A stretch of DNA of 64,000 nucleotides from Sphingobacteriales bacterium (GTDB taxonomy: Bacteria > Bacteroidota > Bacteroidia > Chitinophagales > Chitinophagaceae). A program made the position numbers and the translations under genes. The notes beneath the pieces were generated by a model. It had not been told where the DNA came from. It saw only the letters and a program-made list of their open reading frames with translations, and did no database searches. This document shows, in pieces, positions 4,332-46,903 of the stretch (position 1 is the stretch's first letter; every line of letters starts with the position of its first letter). Location of the stretch: positions 434,001 through 498,000 of the forward strand of contig JACRLZ010000004.1 of NCBI GenBank assembly GCA_016235125.1, written 5' to 3'.

Positions 4332-4339
4332 ATGCTGAA

Positions 4340-5017
4340 TTAGTTGTTACGAATATACTTAACAGCTCCCCGAACAATAAGCAGTTGTGCCAGCGCATAA
4401 GTGGTTATAATGATAACGCCGGCCCATTCAAATGGCCTGTAAAATTTGTTGATGGCCAGAACTGAATCAGAGATAACAAAAAGCAAAGCTCCTATCATCA
4501 TCAATCTGCCAGCTTCTTTGCTTTTTATAAACAACATATGCATCGCCAGCATGAACATAAAACTGATGACGATACCATAAACCCGCACCGGCCATTTGAG
4601 GTCTCCGAGATAAGGAGATAAAAGAGCTATCAATGCACCATAATAAACAACTATTATGACCATCACCCAGGGATTTGCTTTTACATTTTCTTTTATACGA
4701 ACATGGTGGAAAAAAACAATGTAGAAAATATGAGCAATAAGGAAAGAAGCTAATCCAAGCATGAAAAATATTTTATCCTTTGGTTCAAACATGAGCAATA
4801 TATCCCCCGCCCATGAAAAAAACAAAGCTGCAATTATCCAGTTCTTCAAATTTGTCGTGATTCTATTTACTGAAGTAAGAAAAAAGATCATCAGCAATGG
4901 CATCAGCAACGGCTTGCTGAAATATTGAAGCATGGTTTGATCAGGTAATTGAACAACCCCTCCTGTGTAAACAGAAAGGGCTGCGATAAAGATCAATATC
5001 CAAATATTTTTATTCAT
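4340..5017 (-). CDS. YhhN family membrane protein (lysoplasmalogenase-like)
   Basis: 225 residues, almost entirely hydrophobic, with about eight predicted membrane segments. The pattern matches the YhhN/TMEM86 family (PF07947). Characterised animal members hydrolyse the vinyl-ether bond of lysoplasmalogens; the bacterial substrate is mostly unproven. Conserved acidic residues in membrane segments (for example WAGDILLMF near residue 70 and FVISDSVLAINKF near 185) match the family's likely metal or catalytic sites. It sits between ispG (8 nt) and nadB (8 nt), so the genes are almost certainly co-transcribed. The lipid-enzyme neighbours are compatible with a membrane-lipid role but do not prove it. 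Confidence 0.85.
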   Translation of the reverse strand: MNKNIWILIFIAALSVYTGGVVQLPDQTMLQYFSKPLLMPLLMIFFLTSVNRITTNLKNWIIAALFFSWAGDILLMFEPKDKIFFMLGLASFLIAHIFYIVFFHHVRIKENVKANPWVMVIIVVYYGALIALLSPYLGDLKWPVRVYGIVISFMFMLAMHMLFIKSKEAGRLMMIGALLFVISDSVLAINKFYRPFEWAGVIIITTYALAQLLIVRGAVKYIRNN

Positions 5018-5025
5018 ATGGTGTT

Positions 5026-7098
5026 TTATGCTTCAATCCAGGCATCGCTTTCTTTGATCAAATTAATAAGTTCTTCCACGGCAATCTCACTGTTCACATT
5101 TCGCTTAACTATTTCTTTGCCTTTATATAAAGTAATTTTTCCCGGCCCGCTACCCACATAACCAAAATCGGCATCGGCCATTTCGCCGGGGCCATTTACA
5201 ATGCAGCCCATGATGGCGATCTTCAATCCTTTCAGATGATTGGTGACAGCCCTGATCTTTGCAGTGGTTTCCTGTAAATCAAATAATGTTCTTCCGCAAC
5301 TAGGGCAACTGATATATTCTGTTTTGGAGATCCTTGTCCTTGTCGCCTGCAGAATACTGAAAGCAGTATTATTGGTAAACTGGTAAATATCTTTTACGGG
5401 TAAATAAGTTCTCCCTTTGGCTTTACTATTTTCCATCGAAGCTTTTCCTGAATAGCCAAGACAAATACCATCGCCCATTCCATCCAAAAACAAAGCGCCG
5501 GTTTCAGTGGCAAAATGAATCAGGTGTTCATCCGGAGTCTGCCAGTTACTATCCGTGATCAGCACAACCGGATTATTGATATTCCTGTTCATCAGTTCTA
5601 CAAACATTCGGCGAACAGATTGCATCGCATTTTTCCTGGTTGAGCTCAGGCAAAGAACAATTGTCGGGTCATTTGCAATGTCATCTAAGTAAGTGTAATC
5701 ATTCACTGCAGTTTCATCGCTATAACAATCAATCATTACAAAATTGAGTGATTCACTTTTGTACTCACATTCAACAAAGCCCTTATCAGAAAATATCGGA
5801 AAGTATTTGATTTTGTCCTCTGCATTTTGCCATGCCGCAGGATAAACAATCACTTTTAATGTTCCCGGCAAAGCAAAATCAAGTAACTGATTCCCTGTAA
5901 AAACATAATCGGCTGCAGCATCGCTTATGTTCCATTTATCAGTCGCTTCATCGTAAGTATAACCAATGCTTTGGAAATGTTTTTGAGTAATTTTTTCTAT
6001 TTTACTTAGATCAGCAATTGCCACAGGCACATGTTTTCCTCCAATATTATTAACTGCAAATGTTTCTCTTCGTTTATATTCGAATGGAGAATAGGGCAGC
6101 CTGTTGATTGCCGGAATCTCCCGGCTGTCTTTTACAACTGTATGGGTATAATGCTCATTTACTAATTCTTTTCCGTCAATAATGAAATGTTCTCGTTTAA
6201 TAAGCAAGGTTTCATTTGCCTTGTATCTATTAAAGATGTCTTTGCACACCGGTATCTCAAACTCAGGATCTTCGGTCAAAGAAACTCTTATCGTGTCACC
6301 AATCCCATCTTCCAGCAATGCTCCGATACCAATCGCTGATTTTATTCTTCCATCTTCGCCATCGCCGGCTTCAGTGACGCCGAGATGCAGAGGATAACAT
6401 TCGCCAAACTCATCAAACATCGTTTTCACCAGCAAGCGGTATGCCTGCACCATCACCAGCGGATTGCTGCTTTTCATGCTCAGCACTATATTGTGATAAA
6501 CCTCTGCTCTTGCAATACGCAAAAATTCCATTGCGCTTTCTACCATACCCATCGGCGTGTCCCCATAACGGCTCATGATGCGGTCGCTCAGAGAACCATG
6601 ATTGGTACCGATGCGCATCGCCGTTCCATATTCTTTGCAAATTTTCACCAATGGTGTAAAGCGTTCTCTTATCCTGTCAATTTCCTCTGCATATTCTGCA
6701 TCTGTGTATTCAATCTGTTCAAATTTTTTCTTATCCACATAGTTGCCGGGATTCACTCTTACTTTTTCAACGATCCTTGCAGCAATTTCTGCTGCATTCG
6801 GGGTAAAATGAATATCGGCTACCAATGGAGTGTGGTATCCTCTTTTTTTTAATTCATTTTTTATGTTCAGCAAATTTTCCGCCTCTTTTTTTGAGGGGGC
6901 AGTGATGCGAATTAGTTCAGAGCCGGCTTGAATGCAACGGATACTTTGCTCAACCGTCGCAATAGTATCCATCGTATCAGTAGTGGTCATTGTCTGTATC
7001 CTGATGGGATGGTAGTTGCCCAGTAGCAGGTCTCCGATCTTAACCTCTCTTGTTTTAAGCCGCTTGTATTCTGTTAATGATTCGCAATAGAATTGCAT
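5026..7098 (-). CDS. ispG: 4-hydroxy-3-methylbut-2-enyl diphosphate synthase, long form
   Basis: 690 residues, the long three-domain form found in Bacteroidota, chlamydiae and plants rather than the roughly 370-residue E. coli form. It converts MEcPP to HMBPP in the MEP isoprenoid pathway. An N-terminal TIM barrel (about 1-280, with RIQTMTTTDTMDT and VADIHF) is followed by the large insert domain and a C-terminal iron-sulfur domain. The 4Fe-4S ligands are visible as CPSC (C598, C601) and GCIVNGPGE (C632, E639). It is the first gene of the ispG-yhhN-nadB-lpxL-like operon. Its upstream region holds an intergenic repeat element (7105-7200), so the promoter must lie in or beyond that element. Confidence 0.97.
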   Translation of the reverse strand: MQFYCESLTEYKRLKTREVKIGDLLLGNYHPIRIQTMTTTDTMDTIATVEQSIRCIQAGSELIRITAPSKKEAENLLNIKNELKKRGYHTPLVADIHFTPNAAEIAARIVEKVRVNPGNYVDKKKFEQIEYTDAEYAEEIDRIRERFTPLVKICKEYGTAMRIGTNHGSLSDRIMSRYGDTPMGMVESAMEFLRIARAEVYHNIVLSMKSSNPLVMVQAYRLLVKTMFDEFGECYPLHLGVTEAGDGEDGRIKSAIGIGALLEDGIGDTIRVSLTEDPEFEIPVCKDIFNRYKANETLLIKREHFIIDGKELVNEHYTHTVVKDSREIPAINRLPYSPFEYKRRETFAVNNIGGKHVPVAIADLSKIEKITQKHFQSIGYTYDEATDKWNISDAAADYVFTGNQLLDFALPGTLKVIVYPAAWQNAEDKIKYFPIFSDKGFVECEYKSESLNFVMIDCYSDETAVNDYTYLDDIANDPTIVLCLSSTRKNAMQSVRRMFVELMNRNINNPVVLITDSNWQTPDEHLIHFATETGALFLDGMGDGICLGYSGKASMENSKAKGRTYLPVKDIYQFTNNTAFSILQATRTRISKTEYISCPSCGRTLFDLQETTAKIRAVTNHLKGLKIAIMGCIVNGPGEMADADFGYVGSGPGKITLYKGKEIVKRNVNSEIAVEELINLIKESDAWIEA

Positions 7099-33236: not shown

Positions 33237-36200
33237 TTATTGAATAATCCTTACGTTATAGGATATCAGCGGTGGATTGACAGCTGCTCCGGAATTATTT
33301 TCAAATCTCACTTCAATTGTATCGGCAGCACTTACTCTTGCCCAGGCTATAATAACTCCATTTGGCGGCGCTGAGGAAGGTGAGATTGATACAACACTTC
33401 CCACAGTAGCTCCGGTGAAAGCAACACTCATTGTGGTTCCCGAATTTATTGCAATATTAGGCGGATTAATATTGACAGAACCGCTCAGTATGCCCTTCCA
33501 GCCACTTCCATTATAGCTTTCCAGTGTCCCCCCATTATCAGTATTATACCTGACCATTCCTGTTACAGGAGTAGTAGGTCTTTGAGCCGACGTACCGGTT
33601 GGAACAACCATAGCACTGGTTGAATTTACATCCAGTACAGCTCTTGGAGTAATAGATGCTCCATCGGTTATTAAAACAGAATCACCCAACCTGTTCAATC
33701 CTTTATTGGAATAAAAGGCGAAATTCTTCCTGGCTGCAGCACCGGTTACATTGCTGAGATAAATACCATATATACTTCCATCAACATTATTGGCAAGTCC
33801 TGAAAAACTTCCAAACCAGCCATATATATTTCCCGTAACCCTTCCGGCTGTGGCGCCGGTTCTTGAAATAACAGTTCTGACACCAATCATATCACCCGTA
33901 TTGTTACCGTTACCATTTTGAATGCGTACCACATTTTGAATACCGGTTATGGAACCCGATTTTCCATTACCACTGTTGCGGGCAGTATTCAATATGCCAA
34001 TCACCGCCTGCACCGAATCATTCCCCGCATGAATAATGGTGTTGGCAATACCGGATAACTGGTCAGCTTTCTGAAAAGCCTTGGGGTTCATAACAGTTGT
34101 GGTTGTAAGATTATTGTAAAGTGTGCCGTTTGAAGCATTATCTACTTCATAAACCATATTGACGTTGGCGCCATCGGCCAATGTACTGTCGGTTCTTTTA
34201 GAAGCCGTGGATTTAAAAGTGTATTTACCATTAAATGCATCAACAGGAAAATCGGAACCAAGGCTATTGGTATTGGTATACCTGTCGCTGAATACAAACT
34301 TTTTTGTAGTGTTGTTATAAAATATAGTATCGGTTGCAGGCAATCCTCTTACTAAGTTTACCCTGCTGGTACCTGCATCATATTTCCATTCTGCTGTATC
34401 AGCGCTTAAAGCCAACCAAACAGTGCCATTATAATATTCCATATTTGCGCCGTCATTATTATGACGCAGCATAGCGGTAACCGGTGCAGATGGACGTTGT
34501 GCTGTTGTGCCCGCCGGTGTAATCATTGCGCTGGTTGAATTTACATCCAGCACGGCACGGGGTGAAGTAAAGAATCCATCCGTTATCAATGTGGAATCGC
34601 CATAGCGATTGTGACCTTTGTTTGAATAAAACGCATAGTTCTTTTTAGGAGAGGCTACGTTAATATTGTTCAGAAAAACACCATACGCATTTCCGTTGAT
34701 AAAACTGCTTCCGGTACTGTCGGCAAACCCAACCAAGCTTCCCTGATAGCCATATACACTTCCATTTACTCTTCCCCCGGCCCCTGATGCCATACTGATA
34801 GTGTTTCTGTAGCCGATCACTGTACCGATATTATTCCTGGCGCTGTCGGTAATAAGCATATTATTCTGAATGCCCGAAAAAAGACCGGTATATCCACGGC
34901 CATCCACAAAAGCATTGCTCACTACAGAAGTGATAGCATTGAGTGAATCAGCTCCTGTGTGATTAACCTGAAGGTTAAGTGTTCTGATAGTAGAAGGTTT
35001 TTGGGTAGCCGTAGGCAATAATTGAGTAGAGACCCTGATGCCGTTATAAAATGCAAGATTGGGATTGGCAATTGCAAAAGGATCATCGTCTATTTCATAA
35101 AGGAAGTTGGCCATAGTGAGGCTTGGAAAGCTAAGAGAGACCGAGTCATTATACAATTTTGAAGCGGTTGCTTTAAAGAAATATTTTCCGGGAAACTGGT
35201 CATCAATAGCGGCAGGCGTTCCAAATGTTCTGCTGTCAGCAAATACAAACTTGCGTTTTGTAATATTATAATAAAATGAATCGGCCTGTGGCAATCCTCT
35301 CACAAGATTGACCCTGTTGGTCCCCGTATCATATTTCCATTCAGCGCTGTCACTGCTGAAGGCCTTCCATGCAAGGCCGTCATAGAATTCCATGTTACTT
35401 CCCGTGCTGTTATAGCGAAGCATTGCCGTTACCGGGGAGGCGGGTCTTTGTGCTGCGGTACCTGCCGGTGTTATCATGGCGCTGGTTGAATTTACATCCA
35501 GTATGGCCCGGGGACTGACGGATCCATTATCAGTGATCAGAGTAGAATCGCCGAACCGATTATGTCCTGTATTGGTGTAAACAGCATAATTATTTTTGGG
35601 TATGGCGCCGGTTACAGGACCAAGATAAATACCATATGCTTTGCCATCAATTTTACCGGTATAGTTACTGATAAAACTCCTGTAGCCATACACATCGCCG
35701 GTAACTCTGCCTGTAGCAGTTGAAATACGGCTGATATTATTGTTAATACCTGTGATCTGTCCGACATTATTAGTTGATACGTTGCCGATGCGTACACTAT
35801 TGGAAATTCCTGTAAGTACATCTGCCTGACCATTGCCATTTACCGAAGCACTGTTGGTAAACCCTGATACATTGCTGGCCGTATTCTGCCCGGCATGAAT
35901 TACATTGGTCTGCAAAGCCGAAATGAAATCAAGGGCATCATTATTCTTCGGATTATTAACCGCTACAATTTGTGCCCCGTTAAAGAATGTATTCAGGCCC
36001 GAGCTATCCACTTCAAAAAAAACATTCAGCGTAGTAGGATTAAGGTTAGCCGTGTCGGTAAACCGGGAGGCTGTAGCCTTGAAATAATACTTCCCCGGAA
36101 AATTTGTTACAGGGAAATCCTGGCCAAGACTATTACTGTATTCTGTCCGGTCTGAAAAAACAAACTTCCTGCTGTCGATATTATAAAATACGGAATCGTT

Positions 36201-36587
36201 TTTAGGATAGCCCCTTACCAGGAAAACTCTTGAAGTAGTGGTATCAAACTCCCATTCGCATGAATCGCCACCGAGCCGGTTGATGGTTTGTTGGAGTAAT
36301 GGCATCCATTGTTTTTTTTCAACGCTGTAGATGAATATTGCTTTTTCATCGGTGTTATAAATCACAAGGGCATCCGCAGGATTTTTTATCCCAAGCATTT
36401 GCTGCTGGTTCATTCTTGGCATCAGGAATCCTTTGTCCTGGCTTTGTAATTCAAGTACGGAAGACGGATGGGGATTATCCTTGCCGGTTCCTCCAATTTT
36501 TACCTGTGCCATTATTGAACTGCTTATTAAAAAGCAGCATACAGACAGCAACAGTTTAGTTTCGGCTAATGGTTTCATATATGTCAT
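33237..36587 (-). CDS. Large secreted protein with three tandem ~310-residue modules
   Basis: 1116 residues from the ATG at 36587 (or 1113 from 36578). An open frame continues to 36725, but that extension crosses the terminator of the upstream gene, so it is rejected. Signal peptide ends near SSSIMAQ. The N-terminal part (GKDNPHPSSVLELQSQDKGF) resembles the start of Bacteroidota surface or tail-fibre-like proteins. Three modules follow, each with a boundary motif LDVNSTSAM(I/V)xPxGTxAQRP at plus-strand positions near 33612, 34529 and 35479 (917 and 950 bp apart), then a (M)xxYxGxxW unit, EWKYDxGTxRVNLVRGLP and a glycine/serine-rich beta-solenoid-like tract. The role is probably surface fibre or adhesin (inference); no enzyme motif is seen. 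Confidence 0.85.
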   Translation of the reverse strand: MTYMKPLAETKLLLSVCCFLISSSIMAQVKIGGTGKDNPHPSSVLELQSQDKGFLMPRMNQQQMLGIKNPADALVIYNTDEKAIFIYSVEKKQWMPLLQQTINRLGGDSCEWEFDTTTSRVFLVRGYPKNDSVFYNIDSRKFVFSDRTEYSNSLGQDFPVTNFPGKYYFKATASRFTDTANLNPTTLNVFFEVDSSGLNTFFNGAQIVAVNNPKNNDALDFISALQTNVIHAGQNTASNVSGFTNSASVNGNGQADVLTGISNSVRIGNVSTNNVGQITGINNNISRISTATGRVTGDVYGYRSFISNYTGKIDGKAYGIYLGPVTGAIPKNNYAVYTNTGHNRFGDSTLITDNGSVSPRAILDVNSTSAMITPAGTAAQRPASPVTAMLRYNSTGSNMEFYDGLAWKAFSSDSAEWKYDTGTNRVNLVRGLPQADSFYYNITKRKFVFADSRTFGTPAAIDDQFPGKYFFKATASKLYNDSVSLSFPSLTMANFLYEIDDDPFAIANPNLAFYNGIRVSTQLLPTATQKPSTIRTLNLQVNHTGADSLNAITSVVSNAFVDGRGYTGLFSGIQNNMLITDSARNNIGTVIGYRNTISMASGAGGRVNGSVYGYQGSLVGFADSTGSSFINGNAYGVFLNNINVASPKKNYAFYSNKGHNRYGDSTLITDGFFTSPRAVLDVNSTSAMITPAGTTAQRPSAPVTAMLRHNNDGANMEYYNGTVWLALSADTAEWKYDAGTSRVNLVRGLPATDTIFYNNTTKKFVFSDRYTNTNSLGSDFPVDAFNGKYTFKSTASKRTDSTLADGANVNMVYEVDNASNGTLYNNLTTTTVMNPKAFQKADQLSGIANTIIHAGNDSVQAVIGILNTARNSGNGKSGSITGIQNVVRIQNGNGNNTGDMIGVRTVISRTGATAGRVTGNIYGWFGSFSGLANNVDGSIYGIYLSNVTGAAARKNFAFYSNKGLNRLGDSVLITDGASITPRAVLDVNSTSAMVVPTGTSAQRPTTPVTGMVRYNTDNGGTLESYNGSGWKGILSGSVNINPPNIAINSGTTMSVAFTGATVGSVVSISPSSAPPNGVIIAWARVSAADTIEVRFENNSGAAVNPPLISYNVRIIQ

Positions 36588-36665
36588 TTTTAATCCGGGC
36601 AAGTTAGGATTTATATTAAACGACACAATACCACTTTCAGGGGGTTTTTTAAAGTTTCCGGCATA

Positions 36666-36695
36666 AAAAAGCCGGTTATCTCTAACCGGCTTTTT
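36666..36695 (-). terminator. Strong terminator for the outer-membrane gene at 36713
   Basis: AAAAAGCCGGTTA (36666-36678) pairs perfectly with TAACCGGCTTTTT (36683-36695) around TCTC. On the minus strand it lies 17 bp after the stop at 36713 and has a T-run on its 3' side. It also shows that the following gene must start downstream of here. Confidence 0.92.
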
Positions 36696-36712
36696 ATTAA
36701 ATAAATTCAAAA

Positions 36713-39283
36713 TCAGAATTTCCACCCAAATCCAAACATAGGGATATTATCTTCAGATGACATGGCATAGGACAGGGTGAATGTGATGCGACGCAAAGGC
36801 GCAAACCAGAAACCACCTCCATAGCCTGTCGCCATTTTGCTTACGGCATCATTCTTTACCCACACTCTTCCTACATCTACAAAAGCAAACATGCCAAAAG
36901 AGGCTGGGAAAAGATAGGTTTTAAGATTAGCTAATTTTAAACGGAGTTCCGTCTGGTTAAAAAATTTGGAGTTTCCCGCCCAGCGATTCTTGCGATAGCC
37001 TCTCAGGCAATCATCGCTGCCAAGATATTGTGCCTGGAAAAATTCAAATGGCTGACTCTGGCTTCCGCTACCGGAAGTAACACCCCCCCCGATACGATTG
37101 GCCCATACCAGCCAGTCCTTCACCAGACTCAGATAGAAAGCAAAATCAGCATTTAGCTGCGTTACACTTTTATAACTGTTATTACCAATGCCTGAATGAT
37201 AAGAAAAGTTTGTATTCCACGTTATCCCTTTACCCGGCACAGCTTTATTATCACGGGTATCTACCATCAGGCTCAGTTTAGCGCCAAAATATGACTGTCG
37301 CTTATCAAAAATACCCGTATTTAATCCATTAGGCGTTGTCACTTCCACATTTCTTATTTTATTGAATTTGTCGGTGGAATCATAATGATAAAATTGATAA
37401 GAGGGACCAATGGCAAGCATCACTTTCTCGGAAAAACGGTGTCTCAACTGAAGGGTTATATCGCCTAAATCGTAACGGATACGGTAAAATTTGAATTTGC
37501 CTGGTTTTGTTTTGTCATATATTTTGTCCATTCCGTATCCGAAAAAATTGGTGGTGGCATTAGGGCCTCTGTAAGATATGTCGGTAATGATATCTGTCTT
37601 TTTTCCAAAAACTGAGATGAACTCATTATTGTATTGCAGGTTAACTGCGCTGGTGGAGAACGCATACAATCCTTTGAACTGATTAAAGGTTTTGTATGGC
37701 GATTTACGAAAACCATGACGTATATACTTGAATGTAGGCCCAAAGAAAATACCATCATCAGGATTAAATCCCACATTTACAAAAATTGACTGATAAGGAT
37801 ATTTGTAATAAATCCGTTCAAATTTATTTACGGTACTGTCGTTCGAGATTTTGTTTTTGAATCCCCCGGTTACGGTATTGTTTCCATCCGACTTATCGTA
37901 AATAATTGTGCCGGGTTGCACCTTGGCAGTATTTTTAAAAGCGTCTGTTCCGCCACCCCCGATCAACCTTATTTTAAGCTTGTCGTTGGTGCCATTCACC
38001 GTAAATTCATCATCTCCATCAAATCCATAAATACGGATTTCTTTGGTGTAAAAAGGATCAAACTTCCTTTCATACATTTTCGTGGATTGATTCCCTTCTT
38101 TCGTTATTTTATAAACTTCTACCAGCACTGAACCATCATCGTTACGGGTTATATGATACAGTTCTTTTTTGTCGCTGCCGGTAATGCTTACTATTTCGGC
38201 AAGGAAATGATAATACTCCATTACATCTGCTACGATATAATTACGACGGTCTTTTAGTGTTTGAATGATTTTTGCGGCAGAAATATCCCTTATCTCTTTT
38301 GGTTGCACAGCCAATGCATCTTCAATCACTTTGTCTGTCATTTTCGCAAGAAATGATTCAACTTCTTTTTTCCATTCTTCTTCCCCGAGCTGATTCAGGA
38401 AAAAACGATCGAGGTTTCGGGCAGCAAAATTGAAGCGTTCAATGCTTTTTGCTTTCGGTTTAAATCCTTCCAGCTGTGGCACAAGAGCCCTGCCTTTTAC
38501 AAATCCCGGTAATAATCCCTGGTTGATATAAAAAGCCTGGTCACGGTCTTTTGCAATAGGATAAAAGGTTTTTCCTTTTCCGTTATCCCATGCTCCCCAG
38601 ATCCACTGGTCTTCGTGCCGGTCAAGATCCATGACAAACATATCGAGTATTCTTACCCGCAACATTGCTAACTGGTCTACATCATTATCATTATCCTTCT
38701 CCAATTTTTCTGCAACTTCATCAGTATCCCATCCCTTTTTGACAGAATCAGGTAATCTTTCTTCATACAATACCATCAGGTTAGCAAAATCTTTTTGGTA
38801 TTCCCCCAGTTTTGGATCATCGGGCACCATTACCAGTCTCGGATGACCATGCGGAACACCTGCCGCTTCGGAAAGAACTGCCATTGACAAAGCTGCATAA
38901 GGGTAAGATGCCGATACCCCGTCTGATACCAGGTCTGCGGCCGCTTCACTCTGCAGATCCCCGGGTAAAGTTTTACTGGTTATGAATTTGGCAATGGAAC
39001 GGAATGTATATTGTCTTCCGTTGGGGTCTTCAAGCCTCAATGATTTGGTTTGTTTTCCCCCGCCTCTTTTTACAGGGGTCAATCCGCCATGCTCAGCCGA
39101 AAGATTTATTACAGGCACCCGGATAGGCGTATTCCATTCCTTTCGGTAATTAGCCCCCATCCAAAATGCCCGGCTACCACTGGTATTAAAATTACCTCCT
39201 GCAGCAGTGGCTGAATCAGATTGAGCAGCGACAGGAATTAACGCAATAAAAAAACTAATAATAAATAAACTAAGCAGTTTCAT
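36713..39283 (-). CDS. BamA/TamA-like outer-membrane protein with kinase-like N-terminal region
   Basis: 856 residues. Signal peptide about 1-20. Residues 40-330 share clear similarity with residues about 408-700 of the protein encoded at 39585: WMGANYRKEW, GGGKQTKSLRL, then DLDRHEDQW (about 219) and PIAKDRDQAF (about 240). Residues about 470-856 form a surface-antigen-type barrel ending in FGFGWKF with the terminal Phe expected for BAM substrates. The DRH...DRDQAF pattern looks like the catalytic and metal-binding motifs of HipA/FAM20-type atypical kinases, but this is inference. The gene is divergent from its paralogue with 301 bp between them. Confidence 0.8.
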   Translation of the reverse strand: MKLLSLFIISFFIALIPVAAQSDSATAAGGNFNTSGSRAFWMGANYRKEWNTPIRVPVINLSAEHGGLTPVKRGGGKQTKSLRLEDPNGRQYTFRSIAKFITSKTLPGDLQSEAAADLVSDGVSASYPYAALSMAVLSEAAGVPHGHPRLVMVPDDPKLGEYQKDFANLMVLYEERLPDSVKKGWDTDEVAEKLEKDNDNDVDQLAMLRVRILDMFVMDLDRHEDQWIWGAWDNGKGKTFYPIAKDRDQAFYINQGLLPGFVKGRALVPQLEGFKPKAKSIERFNFAARNLDRFFLNQLGEEEWKKEVESFLAKMTDKVIEDALAVQPKEIRDISAAKIIQTLKDRRNYIVADVMEYYHFLAEIVSITGSDKKELYHITRNDDGSVLVEVYKITKEGNQSTKMYERKFDPFYTKEIRIYGFDGDDEFTVNGTNDKLKIRLIGGGGTDAFKNTAKVQPGTIIYDKSDGNNTVTGGFKNKISNDSTVNKFERIYYKYPYQSIFVNVGFNPDDGIFFGPTFKYIRHGFRKSPYKTFNQFKGLYAFSTSAVNLQYNNEFISVFGKKTDIITDISYRGPNATTNFFGYGMDKIYDKTKPGKFKFYRIRYDLGDITLQLRHRFSEKVMLAIGPSYQFYHYDSTDKFNKIRNVEVTTPNGLNTGIFDKRQSYFGAKLSLMVDTRDNKAVPGKGITWNTNFSYHSGIGNNSYKSVTQLNADFAFYLSLVKDWLVWANRIGGGVTSGSGSQSQPFEFFQAQYLGSDDCLRGYRKNRWAGNSKFFNQTELRLKLANLKTYLFPASFGMFAFVDVGRVWVKNDAVSKMATGYGGGFWFAPLRRITFTLSYAMSSEDNIPMFGFGWKF

Positions 39284-39584: not shown

Positions 39585-42500
39585 GTGTACCTTAATAAAA
39601 ATATTGTTCTGTCTGCCTTGTTTCTTTTTATAAGCTGGCAGGCTTATGCTCAAACGGATTCAATTGCCAGACGTATTGTTCTTATTGGTGATGCCGGGCA
39701 GTTAACGGATGGCCGGCACCCTGTAGTGAATGCTGTAAAAAATCTGATACCGCTTGATAATAAAACGACTGTGCTTTTTTTAGGAGACAATGTTTATAGA
39801 AATGGGCTTCCCGACAGTACATCATCAACCTATTCTAAATACAGGGCCATACTTGATTCACAACTTTCAGTGGCTGATAATACTCCTGCCAGGGTAGTGA
39901 TGATTCCCGGAAACCATGACTGGGAAAATGGCAGCAGAAGCGGATATGATGCGATCGTACGGCAACAACTATATGTTTCTCTGGTATTGAATAAGCCAAA
40001 TGTAAAATACAGGCCTGAAGATGGATGCCCCGGACCAGACACAATTCAGGTAGGCAATGATGTCCTTATAATACTATTTGACAGTCAGTGGTGGTTACAT
40101 CCTTACGATAAACCGGAAATAGAATCGGATTGCAAATGCAAAACACCTGACGAACTGGCCACGCAAATCGGGGACATTGTTGCCAAGAATTCAAAAAAAC
40201 TCATCATTATTGCCTGTCATCATCCATTTAAAAGCTATGGCCCGCATGGCGGATATTACACATTGAAACAGCATCTTTTTCCTTTTACAGACCTTAAAAA
40301 GAGTTTATATATTCCCCTGCCCGTTTTAGGCTCCATTTATCCTCTTGCCCGAAGCGTATTCGGTTCGCCGCAGGATCTGAAGTATCCTGCTTACACCAAT
40401 ATGATCGAACAAATCGGGGCTGTTGTTAAAGGGATTACTTCTAATGTAATTTTTGTTGCCGGCCATGAGCATAATCTGGAACACATTTACGAAGATGGCT
40501 ATAATTATATTGTGAGCGGAGGGGGATGCAAAATCAACCAGGTATCAAAAAAAAAGAATGTTCCTTTCACTTCAGCTTCCATAGGTTTCTCAGTAATGGA
40601 AATCTCGAAAAATAAAAATGTGACAATTGACTTTTATACTGTGTTGGATACCGTAAGAAAAGTTCATTCAGCCACTTTGTTGAATTATACTCCGGTGAGA
40701 CTCACAGATACTATAACTGCTGAAGTAATGGCAGCAGCCAATTTACCCGATTCAGTCAGTAAAGCCGCCAGTAAAATATTTCCGCAGACACATGGCCTGA
40801 AGAAATTTTTTATGGGTCAAAACTACAGGAGAGAATGGTCAACGCCGGTAAAAATAAAAACCTTTGATATTGATAAAGAAAAAGGCGGATTCAGAGTAGA
40901 AGGAGTTGGCGGAGGTAACCAGACAAGATCATTGCAGCTAATAGATAGCAAAGGAAAGGATTGGTCATTGCGGCAGGTAGAAAAACTGGGAATATCGCTA
41001 CCCGATCCTTTTAAAAATTATATGGCTGCGGATATGGCAAAACAGCTTACATCTGCCTCGCATCCCTATGGTGCATTGATCATTCCGGGGCTGGCCCGGC
41101 CTCTCAATCTTGTTGTTCCCGCACCTGAACTGTTTGTTGTGGAGGATGATGGCAGATTGCAGGGTTATCGTAATCAGTTTGCCGGTAAAGTTTGTATGCT
41201 GGAAGACCGGTTCACCAGGTATAAAGGAAAAGAGACCCGGAGCACCAGCAAAATGTTTAAAGAAATGACCGATGATAATGATCATCGCCCGGATCAGCCC
41301 ACCGTTTTAACAGCACGGCTTCTTGATATGTTTACCGGTGATTTTGACCGTCATCTTGATCAATGGAGATGGTATAAAATAGACACAGGCAAAGGCGAAG
41401 TGTATTATCCTATTGCCCGTGACCGGGATCAGGCTTTCTTTTATTCAGACGGCAAGCTGATGAAGTGGATGATTGGCAGAATGATCCCTTTTTTAAAAGG
41501 TTTCCGGCATGATATTAACGATGTGGACTGGCTGGGATATGCTGCTAAAGATTTCGACCGTGTTTTTCTGACTGATCTTGACGCAAACGAATGGAAAAAT
41601 GCAATAGATGATTTTAAAGAAAAACTGACTGACAGCGTCATCAGGTCTGCTGTAAAAAATTTACCCGCTGAAATTTTTGCTATAAGCGGCGAGGAAATTA
41701 TTCAGAAACTGGTCAGCCGAAGAAACATTCTTTCTGATAAAGCCATGACCTATTACGAGTTCATTTCAAAAAAAGTGAATGTGGTTGGCAGTAATCAGCA
41801 GGAGTATTTCAAAATAAGTAATTACGGCGATGGTTTACAGGTAAGAGTGTACGAAAGGGGAAGAGGCAATGATACCAGTTTTATTATGTATGACCGTGTA
41901 TTCAACCCCTCTGTCACAAAGGAAATAAGATTATATGGTCTTGGCGATAACGATTATTTTGATATTGAAGAGAACGCCAAATCCAGGATAAAATTCCGCA
42001 TCATTGGGGGAAACGGTACAGATACATTCAATATCCGGGGCCAGGTTGAAAATCTCTTATATGACAGAAAAGCGGATAAGGATACTATACTTAATAAGAG
42101 CAAGAGCAAAAAAAGGTTTACCACCAATCCGCATACCAGTTCCAGGAGCCTGTTGAGCTATAATTATAATACCAGTCGTTTCCCTCAACTGACATTGGGT
42201 TATAATGCAGATGATGAAACCCTGATCGGGATCGGTGCTTCAAAGAGAACTTTTGGATTCAGGAACCTCCCTTATGCAACAGACCAACGATTTTCATTTT
42301 TGTATTCCTCACGGGGAGCCTACCATTTTAATTACAAAGGTGAATTCAATCATATAACCCGTAATGCAGATTTGCTGATTCAGAGCCGGCTTGCCCAGCC
42401 TTCTTTAAGAAATTTTTTCGGGCTGGGTAATAATACAACGGCTGATAAGAAAAACATGGATTATTACCGGATTCACTCCAATGAATTCGAGATAGAGGCT

Positions 42501-43229
42501 TTGATACGCCATCGGTATTTTGAACGTCTTCATGTATCCATTGGCCCGTATTACTATCAGTATAAAAGCAGTTATGCTGAGAACAGAACAAACATTCTTT
42601 CCAACTTCCGGCAAATGGGGATGGATTCAGCTGATATTTTCAGCAATAAAAGCAATTTGGGAATTAAAGCCATCTGTACGTTTGACAACCGTAACAATGA
42701 GGTATTTCCCACAAGGGGCATTTTCTGGAATAATGAATTGGTATCACTGGCAGGACTAAACAAAAACAGCGATGCTTATACAAGATTCACCAGTGATATG
42801 ACCATCTATGCCAGCCTGAAAGACCCTGCTAAAATAGTCGGAGTATTGCGGTTTGGCGGAGGCAGGATTTTTGGAAATAAATATGATTACTTCCAGGCAC
42901 TTGACCTCGGCGCAAATAATTATTTACATGGCTTCAGAAAAAACAGGTTTTCCGGCTCGTCCAATATGTATGCAAGCCTTGAACTCAGGATCAAATTATT
43001 CGACGTTAATTCATTTATCTTTTCAGGCCCGTTGGGATTGACCGCTTTTTATGATGCAGGAAGAGTATGGCTCCGCCACCAGGATTATAACAAATGGCAT
43101 TCATCTTTTGGCGGAGGATTGTATTTTGTTCCATTCAACCGGTTTGTGATCTCTTTTGCCGCCGGCTTCTCAGAGCAGGAAAGAGTTTTTAATGCTACAA
43201 TCGGTTCCAGATTCAATCTTACTTTTTAA
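39585..43229 (+). CDS. Calcineurin-like phosphatase fused to kinase-like region and BamA-like barrel
   Basis: 1214 residues, GTG start (39585) just after an in-frame stop; signal peptide about 1-22. Residues about 28-300 form a metallophosphoesterase of the acid-phosphatase type: GDAG (Asp36), GDN (68-69), GNHD (109-112), ACHHP and GHEHN. Residues about 408-700 match the N-terminal region of the 36713 protein, with GGGNQTRSLQL, GDFDRHLDQW (about 585) and PIARDRDQAF (about 610). The rest, from about 840, is a surface-antigen barrel ending RFNLTF. The enzyme parts would face the periplasm. The phosphatase and barrel assignments are solid; the kinase-like reading of the middle is inference. It is followed after 24 bp by a PAP2 phosphatase gene. 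Confidence 0.85.
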   Translation: MYLNKNIVLSALFLFISWQAYAQTDSIARRIVLIGDAGQLTDGRHPVVNAVKNLIPLDNKTTVLFLGDNVYRNGLPDSTSSTYSKYRAILDSQLSVADNTPARVVMIPGNHDWENGSRSGYDAIVRQQLYVSLVLNKPNVKYRPEDGCPGPDTIQVGNDVLIILFDSQWWLHPYDKPEIESDCKCKTPDELATQIGDIVAKNSKKLIIIACHHPFKSYGPHGGYYTLKQHLFPFTDLKKSLYIPLPVLGSIYPLARSVFGSPQDLKYPAYTNMIEQIGAVVKGITSNVIFVAGHEHNLEHIYEDGYNYIVSGGGCKINQVSKKKNVPFTSASIGFSVMEISKNKNVTIDFYTVLDTVRKVHSATLLNYTPVRLTDTITAEVMAAANLPDSVSKAASKIFPQTHGLKKFFMGQNYRREWSTPVKIKTFDIDKEKGGFRVEGVGGGNQTRSLQLIDSKGKDWSLRQVEKLGISLPDPFKNYMAADMAKQLTSASHPYGALIIPGLARPLNLVVPAPELFVVEDDGRLQGYRNQFAGKVCMLEDRFTRYKGKETRSTSKMFKEMTDDNDHRPDQPTVLTARLLDMFTGDFDRHLDQWRWYKIDTGKGEVYYPIARDRDQAFFYSDGKLMKWMIGRMIPFLKGFRHDINDVDWLGYAAKDFDRVFLTDLDANEWKNAIDDFKEKLTDSVIRSAVKNLPAEIFAISGEEIIQKLVSRRNILSDKAMTYYEFISKKVNVVGSNQQEYFKISNYGDGLQVRVYERGRGNDTSFIMYDRVFNPSVTKEIRLYGLGDNDYFDIEENAKSRIKFRIIGGNGTDTFNIRGQVENLLYDRKADKDTILNKSKSKKRFTTNPHTSSRSLLSYNYNTSRFPQLTLGYNADDETLIGIGASKRTFGFRNLPYATDQRFSFLYSSRGAYHFNYKGEFNHITRNADLLIQSRLAQPSLRNFFGLGNNTTADKKNMDYYRIHSNEFEIEALIRHRYFERLHVSIGPYYYQYKSSYAENRTNILSNFRQMGMDSADIFSNKSNLGIKAICTFDNRNNEVFPTRGIFWNNELVSLAGLNKNSDAYTRFTSDMTIYASLKDPAKIVGVLRFGGGRIFGNKYDYFQALDLGANNYLHGFRKNRFSGSSNMYASLELRIKLFDVNSFIFSGPLGLTAFYDAGRVWLRHQDYNKWHSSFGGGLYFVPFNRFVISFAAGFSEQERVFNATIGSRFNLTF

Positions 43230-43253: not shown

Positions 43254-43901
43254 ATGAACCCGGGTAAACCCTCTTTTATTACCGGCAAAACAATTACCAC
43301 TCAGATTGTAGTGGCATCTGTTATTCTGTTTGCCAATTTATTGATGGTGTTTGTTTTCAAAAATAAATGGTTAGACGAGACAGTATTTAATTCTCTATCT
43401 CCACATACCACAGCTGCCCGAACTCATTTATTCCGTGACATCAGTTTTTTTGGCAACCACAGGTTTTTAGTGCCTGCTAATCTTCTCCTGATTGCCTATT
43501 TCATTATTACGAAAAATAAATGCTGGGCTATCAGGGTTGGCGGAGTGGCACTAAGCAGCCTGGGGTTAATGTCACTTTTAAAAAACCTGATACAAAGAGA
43601 CCGCCCGGTGATGCCGTTGGTGGATGGAATTACCAACTATGGTTTTCCCAGCGGACATGCATTAATGAGTGTTGCCTTCTTCGGGCTTTTGATTATGTGG
43701 ACTGCTGAAATAATAAAGAATAAAGCCCAAAGGAACCTGATCATCTGCTTCTATATCTTCCTGGTAGTTGTCATTGGTTTCACCCGGATCTATCTCAGGG
43801 TTCATTACACAACAGATGTGATTGCCGGCTGGTGTACAGGTGTTATCTGGTTGGGAATTTCAGTTTTGCTGATCGAAAAATTAATACCGGCGAAGCGATA
43901 A
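43254..43901 (+). CDS. PAP2-family membrane phosphatase
   Basis: 215 residues with about five or six membrane segments. The three-part PAP2 signature is complete: K-x6-RP (KNLIQRDRP), PSGH (FPSGHALMS) and R-x5-H-x3-D (RIYLRVHYTTD). The catalytic site faces the periplasm. Family members remove phosphate from undecaprenyl diphosphate, phosphatidate or lipid A; the substrate here is unknown. It follows the phosphatase-barrel gene by 24 bp and is probably co-transcribed, placing two phosphatases together. Confidence 0.95.
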   Translation: MNPGKPSFITGKTITTQIVVASVILFANLLMVFVFKNKWLDETVFNSLSPHTTAARTHLFRDISFFGNHRFLVPANLLLIAYFIITKNKCWAIRVGGVALSSLGLMSLLKNLIQRDRPVMPLVDGITNYGFPSGHALMSVAFFGLLIMWTAEIIKNKAQRNLIICFYIFLVVVIGFTRIYLRVHYTTDVIAGWCTGVIWLGISVLLIEKLIPAKR

Positions 43902-43905
43902 AGTT

Positions 43906-45555
43906 TTATTTCTTCTTAAAACTGAATCTTAAGATTGTAGCTATCCCTTCGCCCCCTTCGTTTGAAATAAATAAATCGCCATTCGGCGCAAATGTCATTC
44001 CTTCAGGCTGGTTATACATTACCGGATCAAGCCGGAAGACCTGTTCCGGTTTGCCGGTATTTTTATCTGCCACTACCAGCAGTTTGCCGACCGATGCCAC
44101 TATGTACAGTTTACCATTTACAGGATTAATTCCGGCGGTTGATGGTTTGAAATCCGCTTTATCATCGCCCAGCATTTTCTGTATTTCTTTTATATCGATG
44201 GTGTATGCCGGAGCCGGGTTAAAAGTATGAGTGGTAAGGTCAAACTGGTAGGCCACTCTTATGTCCGTCTTTTTTTCATGAGCACACTCCTTGCAAAGCA
44301 TGATAAGGGACTTCCTGTCTTTATCCAGGTATAAAGTTTCAAATTCATTTTTCTCACCCGGCAAAACAAACTCCTTTGTATTGAATGAACTGTCTTTTGT
44401 ATCAACCTGCACTATGCTGCCTGTGGCAACCAGCATATAAATAGCTGTATCGGTATAAACAATGTCTTCATAATCTCCCTTGCCCCCGAATTTTTCTTTA
44501 TCAACTTTATCATTTTTGTTTTTGAAATCAATGGTAAATATGTCGCCCTTCTCATCATTTTCTGTTAATATCAGGTCTCTTTCCGGGATATAAGCCATGC
44601 CTGATATTTCATGCAGGTGTTTCCCTAAATCCATTTTTTCATCGGGTGAAGTAAAATTATAAGGAAGCGCCCCGCTATTGGTTGAACCTCCCTTCGCAGA
44701 ATCAAACGGGAATTGCAAAACAGTGCCTTTGGAAGTTATTCCTTCATTTGAGATCAGCATGGTCCCATCTTTACGGAAAGTAATTCCCTCGGGTTGAGGA
44801 AAAAGTTTTTTGCCCAATTCATATACCGCTTCCACTTTGCCATTAAGGTCCGCTACTACCAATTGACTGCTGGCAGATGAAAGAATAAAAAGCTTATGAA
44901 GTACCGGGTGAACGGCGGCGGCTGAAGGTTGCAGTTTGGATGCCTTGAAAGGAGAAAGTTTAGCCACTTCCGTTGCATCAATGGTAAAGACAGGTTTGTT
45001 GTCAAATCCGGTTAAATCCGGATAATAGGCAAAAGCGCTGACTGTATTTTTATCGTCAGCTGCACAATTCTTACACATCATGATCAACGCTTTGCGGTCA
45101 GGATCGTAATACAATGTTTCAAAATCATTGCTGCCGGAAAGGTTTATTTTTTCAGACTTTACAGAATATCCTATCCCTGATGTATCTTTTAACAGCTGTG
45201 TGATACGTCCATCGCTGCGTAAAATAAAAGGCACTCCGTTTATCACAGCTACATCTTCATAATCACCTGCTCCGCCAAAACTGTAGGGAGCGGTTAATAT
45301 TGCTTTTTTGTCTTCTGTAAGAAAATATAGTTTTCCGAACTCATCATTAACTGCCAGATAATAGTCGTTCTTGCCATCCCAGGTAATACCCGATATTTCC
45401 CTGATTTGTAAATCCAGCTTAAACTCTTCCTTTTTTGAAAAATTATAATGGGCCGGCGACTTTATGAGCCGGGTTTTGGGACGGCATGCTGCAAATAAAA
45501 GAAAGGGTAGCAGAGCAATCAATAAAAACCTATACAGGAGATTTAAAAAACGCAT
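43906..45555 (-). CDS. Duplicated SdiA-regulated-type beta-propeller lipoprotein
   Basis: 549 residues with an N-terminal signal and lipobox (FAAC, Cys24). Two homologous halves of about 250 residues follow. Each starts with EISG(I/M), has GDYED(V/I), a FETLY(Y/L)D.DRK(A/S)LIM(M/L)CK.C block and ends QPEG(I/M)TF...(D/G)xxLISNEG. The pattern matches the SdiA-regulated family (PF06977), which forms a beta-propeller of unknown function. Each half carries CKNC or CKEC, possibly a metal or disulfide site. It is convergent with PAP2 (4-bp gap) and divergent from the HD gene (43-bp gap). Confidence 0.85.
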   Translation of the reverse strand: MRFLNLLYRFLLIALLPFLLFAACRPKTRLIKSPAHYNFSKKEEFKLDLQIREISGITWDGKNDYYLAVNDEFGKLYFLTEDKKAILTAPYSFGGAGDYEDVAVINGVPFILRSDGRITQLLKDTSGIGYSVKSEKINLSGSNDFETLYYDPDRKALIMMCKNCAADDKNTVSAFAYYPDLTGFDNKPVFTIDATEVAKLSPFKASKLQPSAAAVHPVLHKLFILSSASSQLVVADLNGKVEAVYELGKKLFPQPEGITFRKDGTMLISNEGITSKGTVLQFPFDSAKGGSTNSGALPYNFTSPDEKMDLGKHLHEISGMAYIPERDLILTENDEKGDIFTIDFKNKNDKVDKEKFGGKGDYEDIVYTDTAIYMLVATGSIVQVDTKDSSFNTKEFVLPGEKNEFETLYLDKDRKSLIMLCKECAHEKKTDIRVAYQFDLTTHTFNPAPAYTIDIKEIQKMLGDDKADFKPSTAGINPVNGKLYIVASVGKLLVVADKNTGKPEQVFRLDPVMYNQPEGMTFAPNGDLFISNEGGEGIATILRFSFKKK

Positions 45556-45598
45556 TCTTCTTATTTTGTCTAAATTTATTAAAAGTTATCTTTATAGC

Positions 45599-46903
45599 AT
45601 GACTGAAACCCAATTATCGCTGATTCAGCAGGCCAGAACAGTAGTAACGGATATGCTTTCTCATAAACTGAGTAAAGATATTAAGTTTCATACTTTGCAA
45701 CATACACAGGAAGTGGTGGCAGCCTGCGAAACAATGGCGAACTATCATCAACTCGCAGGTGACGACCGTTTTGCCTTACTGCTGGCAGCCTGGTTTCATG
45801 ATACAGGCTACACTGGTGGCACAGCAAAAGACCATGAAAGCCTGAGTATAAAACTGGCTGAAGATTTCATGCAAGCCCATTCCGTTGCCGATGATATAAA
45901 AGGCAAAGTGACCGGCTGCATCAATGCTACCCGAATGCCACAAGGCCCTGAAACTCTTATTGAAAAAATAATCTGCGATGCCGACCTGTTTCACCTGGGT
46001 ACTGATGCTTTTGATGAAAAAAATAAATTATTACGGCAGGAACTGAATGAATTTGGCGATAACGATGTATCTAAAAAAGACTGGCGAAAAATAAATATCC
46101 GTTTCCTGGAAAGGCATCAGTACTTTACTGCCTATGCTAAAGAAAAACTTCAACCGGAAAAAGAAAAGCACCTGGCTGAATTAATGGAAAAAGAAGAAAA
46201 AAAGCATGAAACCATGAAACCCGAAAAAAAATCTGCCCGACCTGGTCATTCAGGCGGGGAAAAGGAAAAAGACAAGGACAAAAAAAAGGAGAAGGAAAAA
46301 GATCCTGTTGCCCTTGCTGAAGCTGCTGAAGCCAAATTAAAAAGAGAAAAAGAGAAAGAGGCTGACAGAAGTATCGCTACAGTTTTCCGTATCATGGCGC
46401 AAAACCATTCTGCCCTTAGCCAGATGGCGGACTCTAAAGCCAATATACTTATTTCTGTTAACTCTATCATTCTATCGTTGCTGATAGGCAGCCTGATCGA
46501 CAAGTTGCAGACCAATACATCTCTGCAGATACCGATGGGTGTTATTTCCATTGTGTGTGTCACCTCCATCATTTTCGGCATACTGGCCACAAGACCCAAT
46601 GTTTCTCATGGCACTTTTACAAGAGACGACATCGCACAGAAAAGAGCTAACCTGCTTTTCTTCGGAAATTTTCATGGCATGAGTTTGCAGGACTATAATT
46701 GGGGAATGACTGAAATGCTGAGCGACAAAGAGTACATGAACAACAGCATGATAAAGGATAACTATTTTCTTGGAGTGGTACTGGCCAAAAAATACAGATA
46801 CCTCCGCATTGCTTATAATATTTTCATGTATGGGCTGATACTGACTTTGATCGCTTTTGCTGTTTCTTTCCTGATGCCACAGGCTACCGAAGTTTATAAT
46901 TAA
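45599..46903 (+). CDS. HD-domain protein fused to DUF5706 (Pycsar-effector-like)
   Basis: 434 residues from ATG 45599; the longer frame from 45464 overlaps the divergent gene and is rejected. Residues about 1-200 form an HD phosphohydrolase domain: His35, the His67-Asp68 doublet in WFHDTGY and CDAD (Asp127). A charged Lys/Glu linker (about 200-290) follows. The C-terminal part is DUF5706 (PF18967), the membrane effector module of Pycsar antiphage systems: FRIMAQNHSALSQMADSKAN then paired membrane segments (about 315-335, 342-362 and 405-425) with GTFTRDDIAQKRANLLFFGN between. No cyclase gene is nearby. The HD domain may degrade a nucleotide signal that the membrane part senses (inference). 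Confidence 0.88.
   Translation: MTETQLSLIQQARTVVTDMLSHKLSKDIKFHTLQHTQEVVAACETMANYHQLAGDDRFALLLAAWFHDTGYTGGTAKDHESLSIKLAEDFMQAHSVADDIKGKVTGCINATRMPQGPETLIEKIICDADLFHLGTDAFDEKNKLLRQELNEFGDNDVSKKDWRKINIRFLERHQYFTAYAKEKLQPEKEKHLAELMEKEEKKHETMKPEKKSARPGHSGGEKEKDKDKKKEKEKDPVALAEAAEAKLKREKEKEADRSIATVFRIMAQNHSALSQMADSKANILISVNSIILSLLIGSLIDKLQTNTSLQIPMGVISIVCVTSIIFGILATRPNVSHGTFTRDDIAQKRANLLFFGNFHGMSLQDYNWGMTEMLSDKEYMNNSMIKDNYFLGVVLAKKYRYLRIAYNIFMYGLILTLIAFAVSFLMPQATEVYN

Follow-up and report, generated by a model that had tools for sequence, protein, structure and literature searches.

In a window of 64,000 nucleotides from a Sphingobacteriales bacterium of the Chitinophagaceae (contig JACRLZ010000004.1, positions 434,001 to 498,000), we found a gene, here called gene A (39585..43229, plus strand), that encodes a signal peptide, a metallophosphoesterase (MPE), a kinase-like domain and an Omp85 barrel in one protein of 1214 amino acids. 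We lean towards the interpretation that its product is an envelope phosphoryl-transferase/phosphatase pair, exported and anchored in the outer membrane, with two catalytic domains. The domain order, the barrel, the fold similarity of the middle domain, the conservation of both sites, the joint loss of motifs in divergent members and the association with genes for polyphosphate kinase (PPK1) were all computed from the sequences and predicted structures.

Domain architecture of gene A

Gene A is one intact open reading frame with a GTG start; the recurrence of the single-frame architecture in dozens of genera excludes an error of assembly or frame. A Sec signal peptide was recognised by eye at residues 1-22 (39585..39650, plus strand), ending in ...WQAYA and followed by QTDS. 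The Pfam scan of the protein matched PF00149 and the Omp85 family PF01103, and these two domains flank a middle region for which searches of Pfam, NCBIfam and the PDB sequences with the single protein returned no name. An earlier note, made from the sequence alone, had proposed an N-terminal metallophosphoesterase and a C-terminal BamA-type barrel, and both proposals hold: the quoted phosphoesterase motifs are present and PF00149 matches residues 30-228 (E 1e-8), and PF01103 matches residues 945-1210 (E 4e-15, 56.7 bits against a cut-off of 24).

The MPE domain (about residues 30-350; 39672..40634, plus strand) is assigned to the calcineurin-like, purple-acid-phosphatase-like phosphoesterases on the basis of PF00149 and conservation; its likeness to purple acid phosphatase and tartrate-resistant acid phosphatase is weak and comes from PDB sequence matches. 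Five metal-ligand motifs were located by inspection, namely G35-D36-A-G, G67-D68-N69, G109-N-H-D112, H212-H213 and G293-H-E-H296, and in the MPE alignment the ligands D36, D68, N69, N110/H111, H212/H213, H294 and H296 are invariant or nearly so.

At the other end, a 16-stranded Omp85/BamA-type beta-barrel (42171..43226, plus strand) is supported by PF01103, NF047779, the structure model and Foldseek. The model of the full-length protein (predicted local distance difference test, pLDDT, 84.9; predicted template modelling score, pTM, 0.79) contains all 16 strands, and Foldseek matched the barrel to those of BamA and TamA with a best E of 6e-13. Residues 733-865 (41781..42179, plus strand) form a linker from the kinase-like domain to the barrel that is all-beta in the secondary structure of both models; judged by this secondary structure, neither model contains a POTRA domain, or a POTRA-like alternation of helices and strands, between the kinase-like domain and the barrel.

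This architecture also bears on where the enzymatic part may reside. The barrel might move the MPE and the kinase-like part to the cell surface, for example for phosphate scavenging, in the manner of a type Vd (PlpD-like) autotransporter. The order of an N-terminal enzyme and a C-terminal barrel is the same as in the patatin-Omp85 proteins, and genes for a phytase-like propeller and a PAP2 phosphatase adjoin gene A. PlpD carries a POTRA domain between passenger and barrel, whereas none is seen in the model of gene A, and the cargo would amount to about 850 residues. In addition, PlpD differs in its enzyme, which is a patatin lipase. The option was raised for the Omp85 'Metallo' subfamily by Heinz and Lithgow (PMC4104836). 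We regard surface transport of this kind as unlikely; it concerns location and is compatible with an envelope transferase/phosphatase.

A predicted kinase-like fold of the middle region

For residues 389-885 an AlphaFold2 model was built from an alignment of 82 members, and it is a confident one (mean pLDDT 88.3, pTM 0.89). In the Foldseek comparison with the PDB, the 50 matches listed for this model are, by their descriptions, all kinase-fold proteins; the list includes mycobacterial and COQ8 entries, which are known to have this fold. The best match was CtkA from Helicobacter pylori (E 3e-6, probability 1.00), followed by a Legionella kinase (7vkb, 3e-5) and Rio2 (5e-5), with weaker matches to PI4K-II alpha (1e-3), CotH (4e-3) and FAM20C (4e-3). 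The Legionella kinase is HipT (PMC9758233). The earlier note had tentatively read the middle as kinase-like and had named structure prediction against FAM20C, HipA, CotH and PI4K folds as the way to check it; the comparison bears this reading out at the level of the fold, and the predicted secondary structure places the Gly-rich, DRH and DRD segments at kinase active-site positions. We delimit the domain, which has no Pfam family, to about residues 405-732 (40797..41780, plus strand) based on the model, the fold search and conservation.

The predicted topology begins with beta1 (436-441), the Gly-rich loop GGGNQTR (442-448; 40908..40928), beta2 (449-453) and beta3 (459-464). R463 lies inside beta3 and K467 just past it, both conserved, so that the segment SLRQVEK, ending at K467, offers candidates for the nucleotide-binding lysine among the basic residues that close beta3 (R463-Q-V-E-K467; 40971..40985). 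E540 (41202..41204) is located in the hinge strand. Helix E (571-584) precedes the catalytic-loop motif D586-F-D588-R-H-L-D-Q593-W594 (41340..41366), which aligns with DRHNGNW of CtkA and is part of GDFDRHLDQW (585-594). Beta7 (594-600) and beta8 (605-611) follow, and directly after beta8 the DFG-Asp position is occupied by D613-R-D615-Q-A-F (41421..41438), a putative metal site within PIARDRDQAF (609-618) that is in register with the D-x-D-x-T-F of CotH proteins; all of these motifs are on the plus strand. The segments thus stand where the earlier note had placed them, and their key residues are conserved to 93-100% in 111 diverse relatives, but the gap of about 17 residues given there between GDFDRHLDQW and PIARDRDQAF has to be corrected to 14. 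Judged by the model, the middle has the fold-level features of the protein kinase-like (PKL) superfamily, a bilobal kinase fold with a Gly-rich loop between beta1 and beta2.

At the sequence level the relationship is faint. CtkA again gave the best match to the family profile among 177,635 PDB sequences, aligning at the DRH loop with E 0.058; with 111 diverse members in the alignment this improved to E 0.015. Single members matched Pfam kinase-like families: one of 111 matched Fam20C (PF06702, E 7e-4), three matched CotH (PF08757, best E 0.029) and two matched HipA_C (E 0.19). Given 111 queries, these matches are only traces. The gathering score of HipA (PF07804) was not reached, the best member scoring 11.8 bits against a cut-off of 30.5, nor was that of CotH; PF06702 was not matched by the family as a whole, and the gene A protein itself matched neither PF08757 nor PF06702. 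No match to PF07804 or PF08757 was obtained anywhere in the genome that carries gene A. Formally, the family is therefore placed outside PF07804, PF08757 and PF06702, though it has the fold-level features of the PKL superfamily.

Conservation and joint loss of the putative active site

Residue conservation was counted in an alignment of 111 diverse relatives of the kinase-like domain. G443, K467, E540, R578, D581, D586, D588, R589, Q593, W594, D613, R614 and D615 are conserved to 93-100%; the counts are 106 for G443, 103 for R463, 108 for K467, 110 for E540, 109 for D586, 103 for D588, 109 for R589, 104 for D613 and 103 for D615. K467, D588, D613 and D615 are retained together in 98 of the 111 relatives and in 60 of the 62 members that are fused to an MPE.

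Members that lack the Gly-rich loop have nearly always lost one of the acidic residues as well: D588 or D613 is missing in seven of eight members without the loop versus six of 103 with it (Fisher p 4e-7, uncorrected for relatedness). Joint loss of the loop and of D588 or D613 is what one shared active site predicts. The same pattern shows that pseudo-forms exist, mostly among barrel proteins without an MPE. Random coincidence as the origin of the motifs was rejected in view of this co-loss and the fold search.

In five loci (L154, L155, L158 at 3452-6112, L159 and L160), paralogues with a kinase-like domain and a barrel have intact frames and have lost the active-site motifs, making them pseudokinase-like.

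That the middle has neither a Pfam family nor a significant profile-profile match would suit a structural linker or periplasmic adaptor whose kinase-like motifs are coincidental. We consider this very improbable, since all 50 fold matches listed carry kinase names, the motifs are in place and are lost together, and stand-alone copies of just the kinase-like domain exist.

Association with polyphosphate kinase genes

Across 80 loci kept from GTDB contigs in a survey of the architecture, PPK1 was among the most frequent neighbours (46 loci). Since the 80 loci include many close relatives, a wider test was made with 87 family genes from 70 diverse genomes, and PPK1 was found within 15 kb of 24 of them, compared to an expectation of 0.9 calculated from the PPK1 counts and a genome of 4.2 Mb. 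The nearby PPK1 is often the second copy in its genome. This link is suggestive because an extracytoplasmic kinase-like domain has to use some donor that is not ATP, or to be supplied with ATP in an unusual way.

In three loci, a nucleotidyl cyclase gene (Guanylate_cyc) comes after PPK1, and both are clustered with the kinase-barrel gene (L048, 10949-14106; L052, 10918-14054; L054, 10919-14066).

Possible function of the two domains

In the mechanism we propose, the N-terminal purple-acid-phosphatase-like MPE would hydrolyse phosphate esters. The middle would represent a new PKL-fold family whose nearest kin are the HipA/CtkA, CotH and FAM20 group. Its active site looks complete, being composed of the Gly-rich loop, a basic residue where strand 3 ends, the DRH loop (with Gln for Asn) and the DRD metal site. 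The domain would most likely catalyse the transfer of a phosphoryl or nucleotidyl group onto a periplasmic or envelope substrate, and the beta linker would tie it to the POTRA-less 16-stranded Omp85 barrel as an anchor. Together, the MPE and the kinase-like domain might write and erase one and the same modification, or might shuttle phosphate in a phosphate- or polyphosphate-related pathway. Catalysis by either domain, a location on the periplasmic side and a shared substrate are thereby what we infer.

Several observations weigh against this interpretation. ATP would not be expected in the periplasm. The fold similarity is remote (template modelling score about 0.5 of the target, root mean square deviation about 8 Å, identity 12-15%), although such modest scores may fit a remote relative with differently placed lobes. 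Profile-profile comparisons (hhalign) gave no significant score, either against an alignment of Bacteroidota HipA proteins (E 0.11) or against one of CotH proteins (E 0.043); the motifs were in register, but the MPE alignment, used as a control, reached 20.5 where HipA had 20.2, and for this reason the scores are not counted as evidence. In 105 of 111 relatives Gln stands where the metal-binding Asn is usual, and judging from the sequences the role of the ATP-binding lysine could fall to more than one basic residue. Kinship among the genomes inflates the p values for co-loss and synteny. Both PPK1 copies of the genome that carries gene A are on other contigs, and the PPK1 link is consequently a trend of the family, not a feature of this locus. 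Finally, some paralogues persist after losing the site, which indicates that the fold is useful without catalysis.

Kinase folds also host pseudokinases and AMPylases. The main rival is accordingly a middle domain that is a ligand-binding pseudokinase or sensor for nucleotide, phosphate or polyphosphate, gating the phosphatase and/or the barrel, with the MPE as the sole enzyme. A periplasm thought to lack ATP, the replacement of the metal-binding Asn by Gln and the retention of several MPE-less paralogues despite loss of the Gly-rich loop, D588 or D613 are in line with it. In the MPE-fused members, on the other hand, K467, D588, R589, H590, D613 and D615 are near-invariant, which goes beyond what a pure binding fold would need, and we judge a pseudokinase to be rather unlikely, if a serious candidate.

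The envelope transferase/phosphatase that we prefer also has a narrower form, in which the reaction is AMPylation, glutamylation or the phosphorylation of a lipid or glycan, not of a protein. The lipid kinase PI4K-II and CotH are among the fold matches, and an outer-membrane enzyme could act on a lipid or glycan; no single acceptor is favoured by the sequence. All of these activities are known for the PKL fold (KINtaro, PMC10870513), and other chemistry of this kind is a real possibility, which we hold tentatively. A more specific version, a bifunctional outer-membrane kinase/phosphatase whose kinase-like domain works outside the cytoplasm on a donor other than ATP, such as polyphosphate made by the associated PPK1, and whose mark is reversed by the MPE, appears improbable to us, polyphosphate as donor being a conjecture from the gene neighbours only.

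Relation to known systems

FAM20C, the Golgi casein kinase (PF06702), resembles the middle domain as a fold match (4kqa/4kqb) and as a kinase of the secretory pathway, but is eukaryotic, lumenal and without a barrel. It carries a DRH-type loop. With H. pylori CtkA and HipA/HipT (PF07804), the best fold match, the domain shares the two-lobed fold, and their DRHxxN-W aligns with DRHxxQ-W here; these proteins are soluble, cytoplasmic or secreted, and have neither barrel nor phosphatase, and PF07804 scores are far below the cut-off for the family. CotH (PF08757) is similar in its fold (5jd9) and in the D-x-D-x-(A/T)-F metal motif, which is in register. Mutation of D228 or D251 inactivates Bacillus subtilis CotH, and these are 23 residues apart (PMC7821199), compared to 25 residues from D588 to D613 here. 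Differences are that the family stays below the Pfam cut-off, that no Omp85 fusion was seen in CotH and that the Bacteroidota CotH proteins compared have a catalytic loop other than DRH.

The fusion of MPE and Omp85 itself has been known as the 'Metallo' subfamily since Heinz and Lithgow 2014 (PMC4104836). Its definition, PF00149 N-terminal to a POTRA-less Omp85 barrel, applies to gene A, whereas the part of the survey considered here mentions no kinase-like domain between the two. Section 10 of that survey labels PF00149 a metalloprotease domain; PF00149 is the metallophosphoesterase family.

In the searchable literature, with most subscription papers outside its scope, there was no prior report of a kinase-like domain in MPE-Omp85 proteins, and nothing relevant on a periplasmic polyphosphate-dependent kinase or an outer-membrane kinase. 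KINtaro (PMC10870513) covers 72 kinase-like families, of which 32 are absent from Pfam. The kinase-like domain, which was not compared to these 32 families, and the PPK1 association appear to be new; the MPE-Omp85 fusion is not.

A virulence metallophosphoesterase of Riemerella anatipestifer, which is counted among the effectors of type IX secretion, could be a relative.

Distribution and domain layouts of the family

The three-part protein, with about 1190-1400 residues in one frame, occurs in dozens of Bacteroidota genera; the 80 loci span Chitinophagaceae, Cyclobacteriaceae, Pontibacter, Rufibacter, Hymenobacter and others. The middle region was present in 110 of 296 genomes sampled across Bacteroidota, that is in over a third.

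Other layouts are a kinase-like domain with a barrel but no MPE (about 860 residues), the middle region alone (about 500-590 residues; in some of these proteins the N-terminus is lipoprotein-like) and a shorter form of 430 residues with an N-terminal hydrophobic segment. The latter ends roughly where the kinase-like domain does, which puts the domain boundary near residue 733. Stand-alone open reading frames of 430 amino acids (L145-L149) share a conserved C-terminal C-F-x-C (CFECG, CFDCN, CFECH, CFECD). At two loci (L142, 4436-7775; L143, 4129-9148), two to three stand-alone kinase-like genes are adjacent and partly divergent, with D588 changed to Ser in some.

An example of the MPE-less layout is gene B (36713..39283, minus strand, 856 amino acids), the divergent neighbour of gene A, 35% identical to it, with a signal peptide, the same kinase-like domain and an Omp85 barrel. 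Its kinase-like domain (38183..39220, minus strand) has intact GGGKQT, DLDRHEDQW and PIAKDRDQAF motifs. The divergent pair of paralogues is kept across the genus and close relatives.

Gene neighbourhood

A gene for a PAP2-family phosphatase (43254..43901, plus strand) starts 25 bases downstream of gene A and is probably in the same operon; it adjoins gene A in near relatives too. It is followed by two conserved neighbours, an SdiA-regulated/phytase-like beta-propeller gene (43906..45555, minus strand) and a gene with HD and PycTM (Pycsar-effector-like) domains (45464..46903, plus strand). The latter type is the commonest neighbour in the 80 loci (69), and DUF6268 (42), a SixA-like histidine phosphatase (32), SdiA/phytase-like genes (31) and a nucleotidyl cyclase (18) are also found. 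Since 69 of the 80 loci, from more than one order, have HD-PycTM next to the gene for the MPE-kinase-barrel protein, it may have a role in the envelope or in phosphate metabolism and not only in phage defence.

On the other side, an open reading frame for 1162 amino acids (33237-36725, minus strand) has three internal repeats (PRAILDVNSTSAMI...) and no Pfam match. Its product looks like a secreted repeat protein, and its first 13 bases coincide with the end of gene B.

Implications

If our interpretation is true, it extends the known bacterial kinase-like proteins by one family, with a near-complete active site, and places phosphoryl transfer in an unexpected compartment. It suggests that the addition and the removal of phosphate, or of similar groups, could occur on one envelope protein, in a place where ATP would not be expected. 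The repeated pairing with PPK1 would point directly to the donor or the pathway. The 'Omp85-Metallo' proteins would become a testable writer/eraser hypothesis, with D36 and H294 as the residues to address in the phosphatase and K467, D588 and D613 in the kinase-like site.

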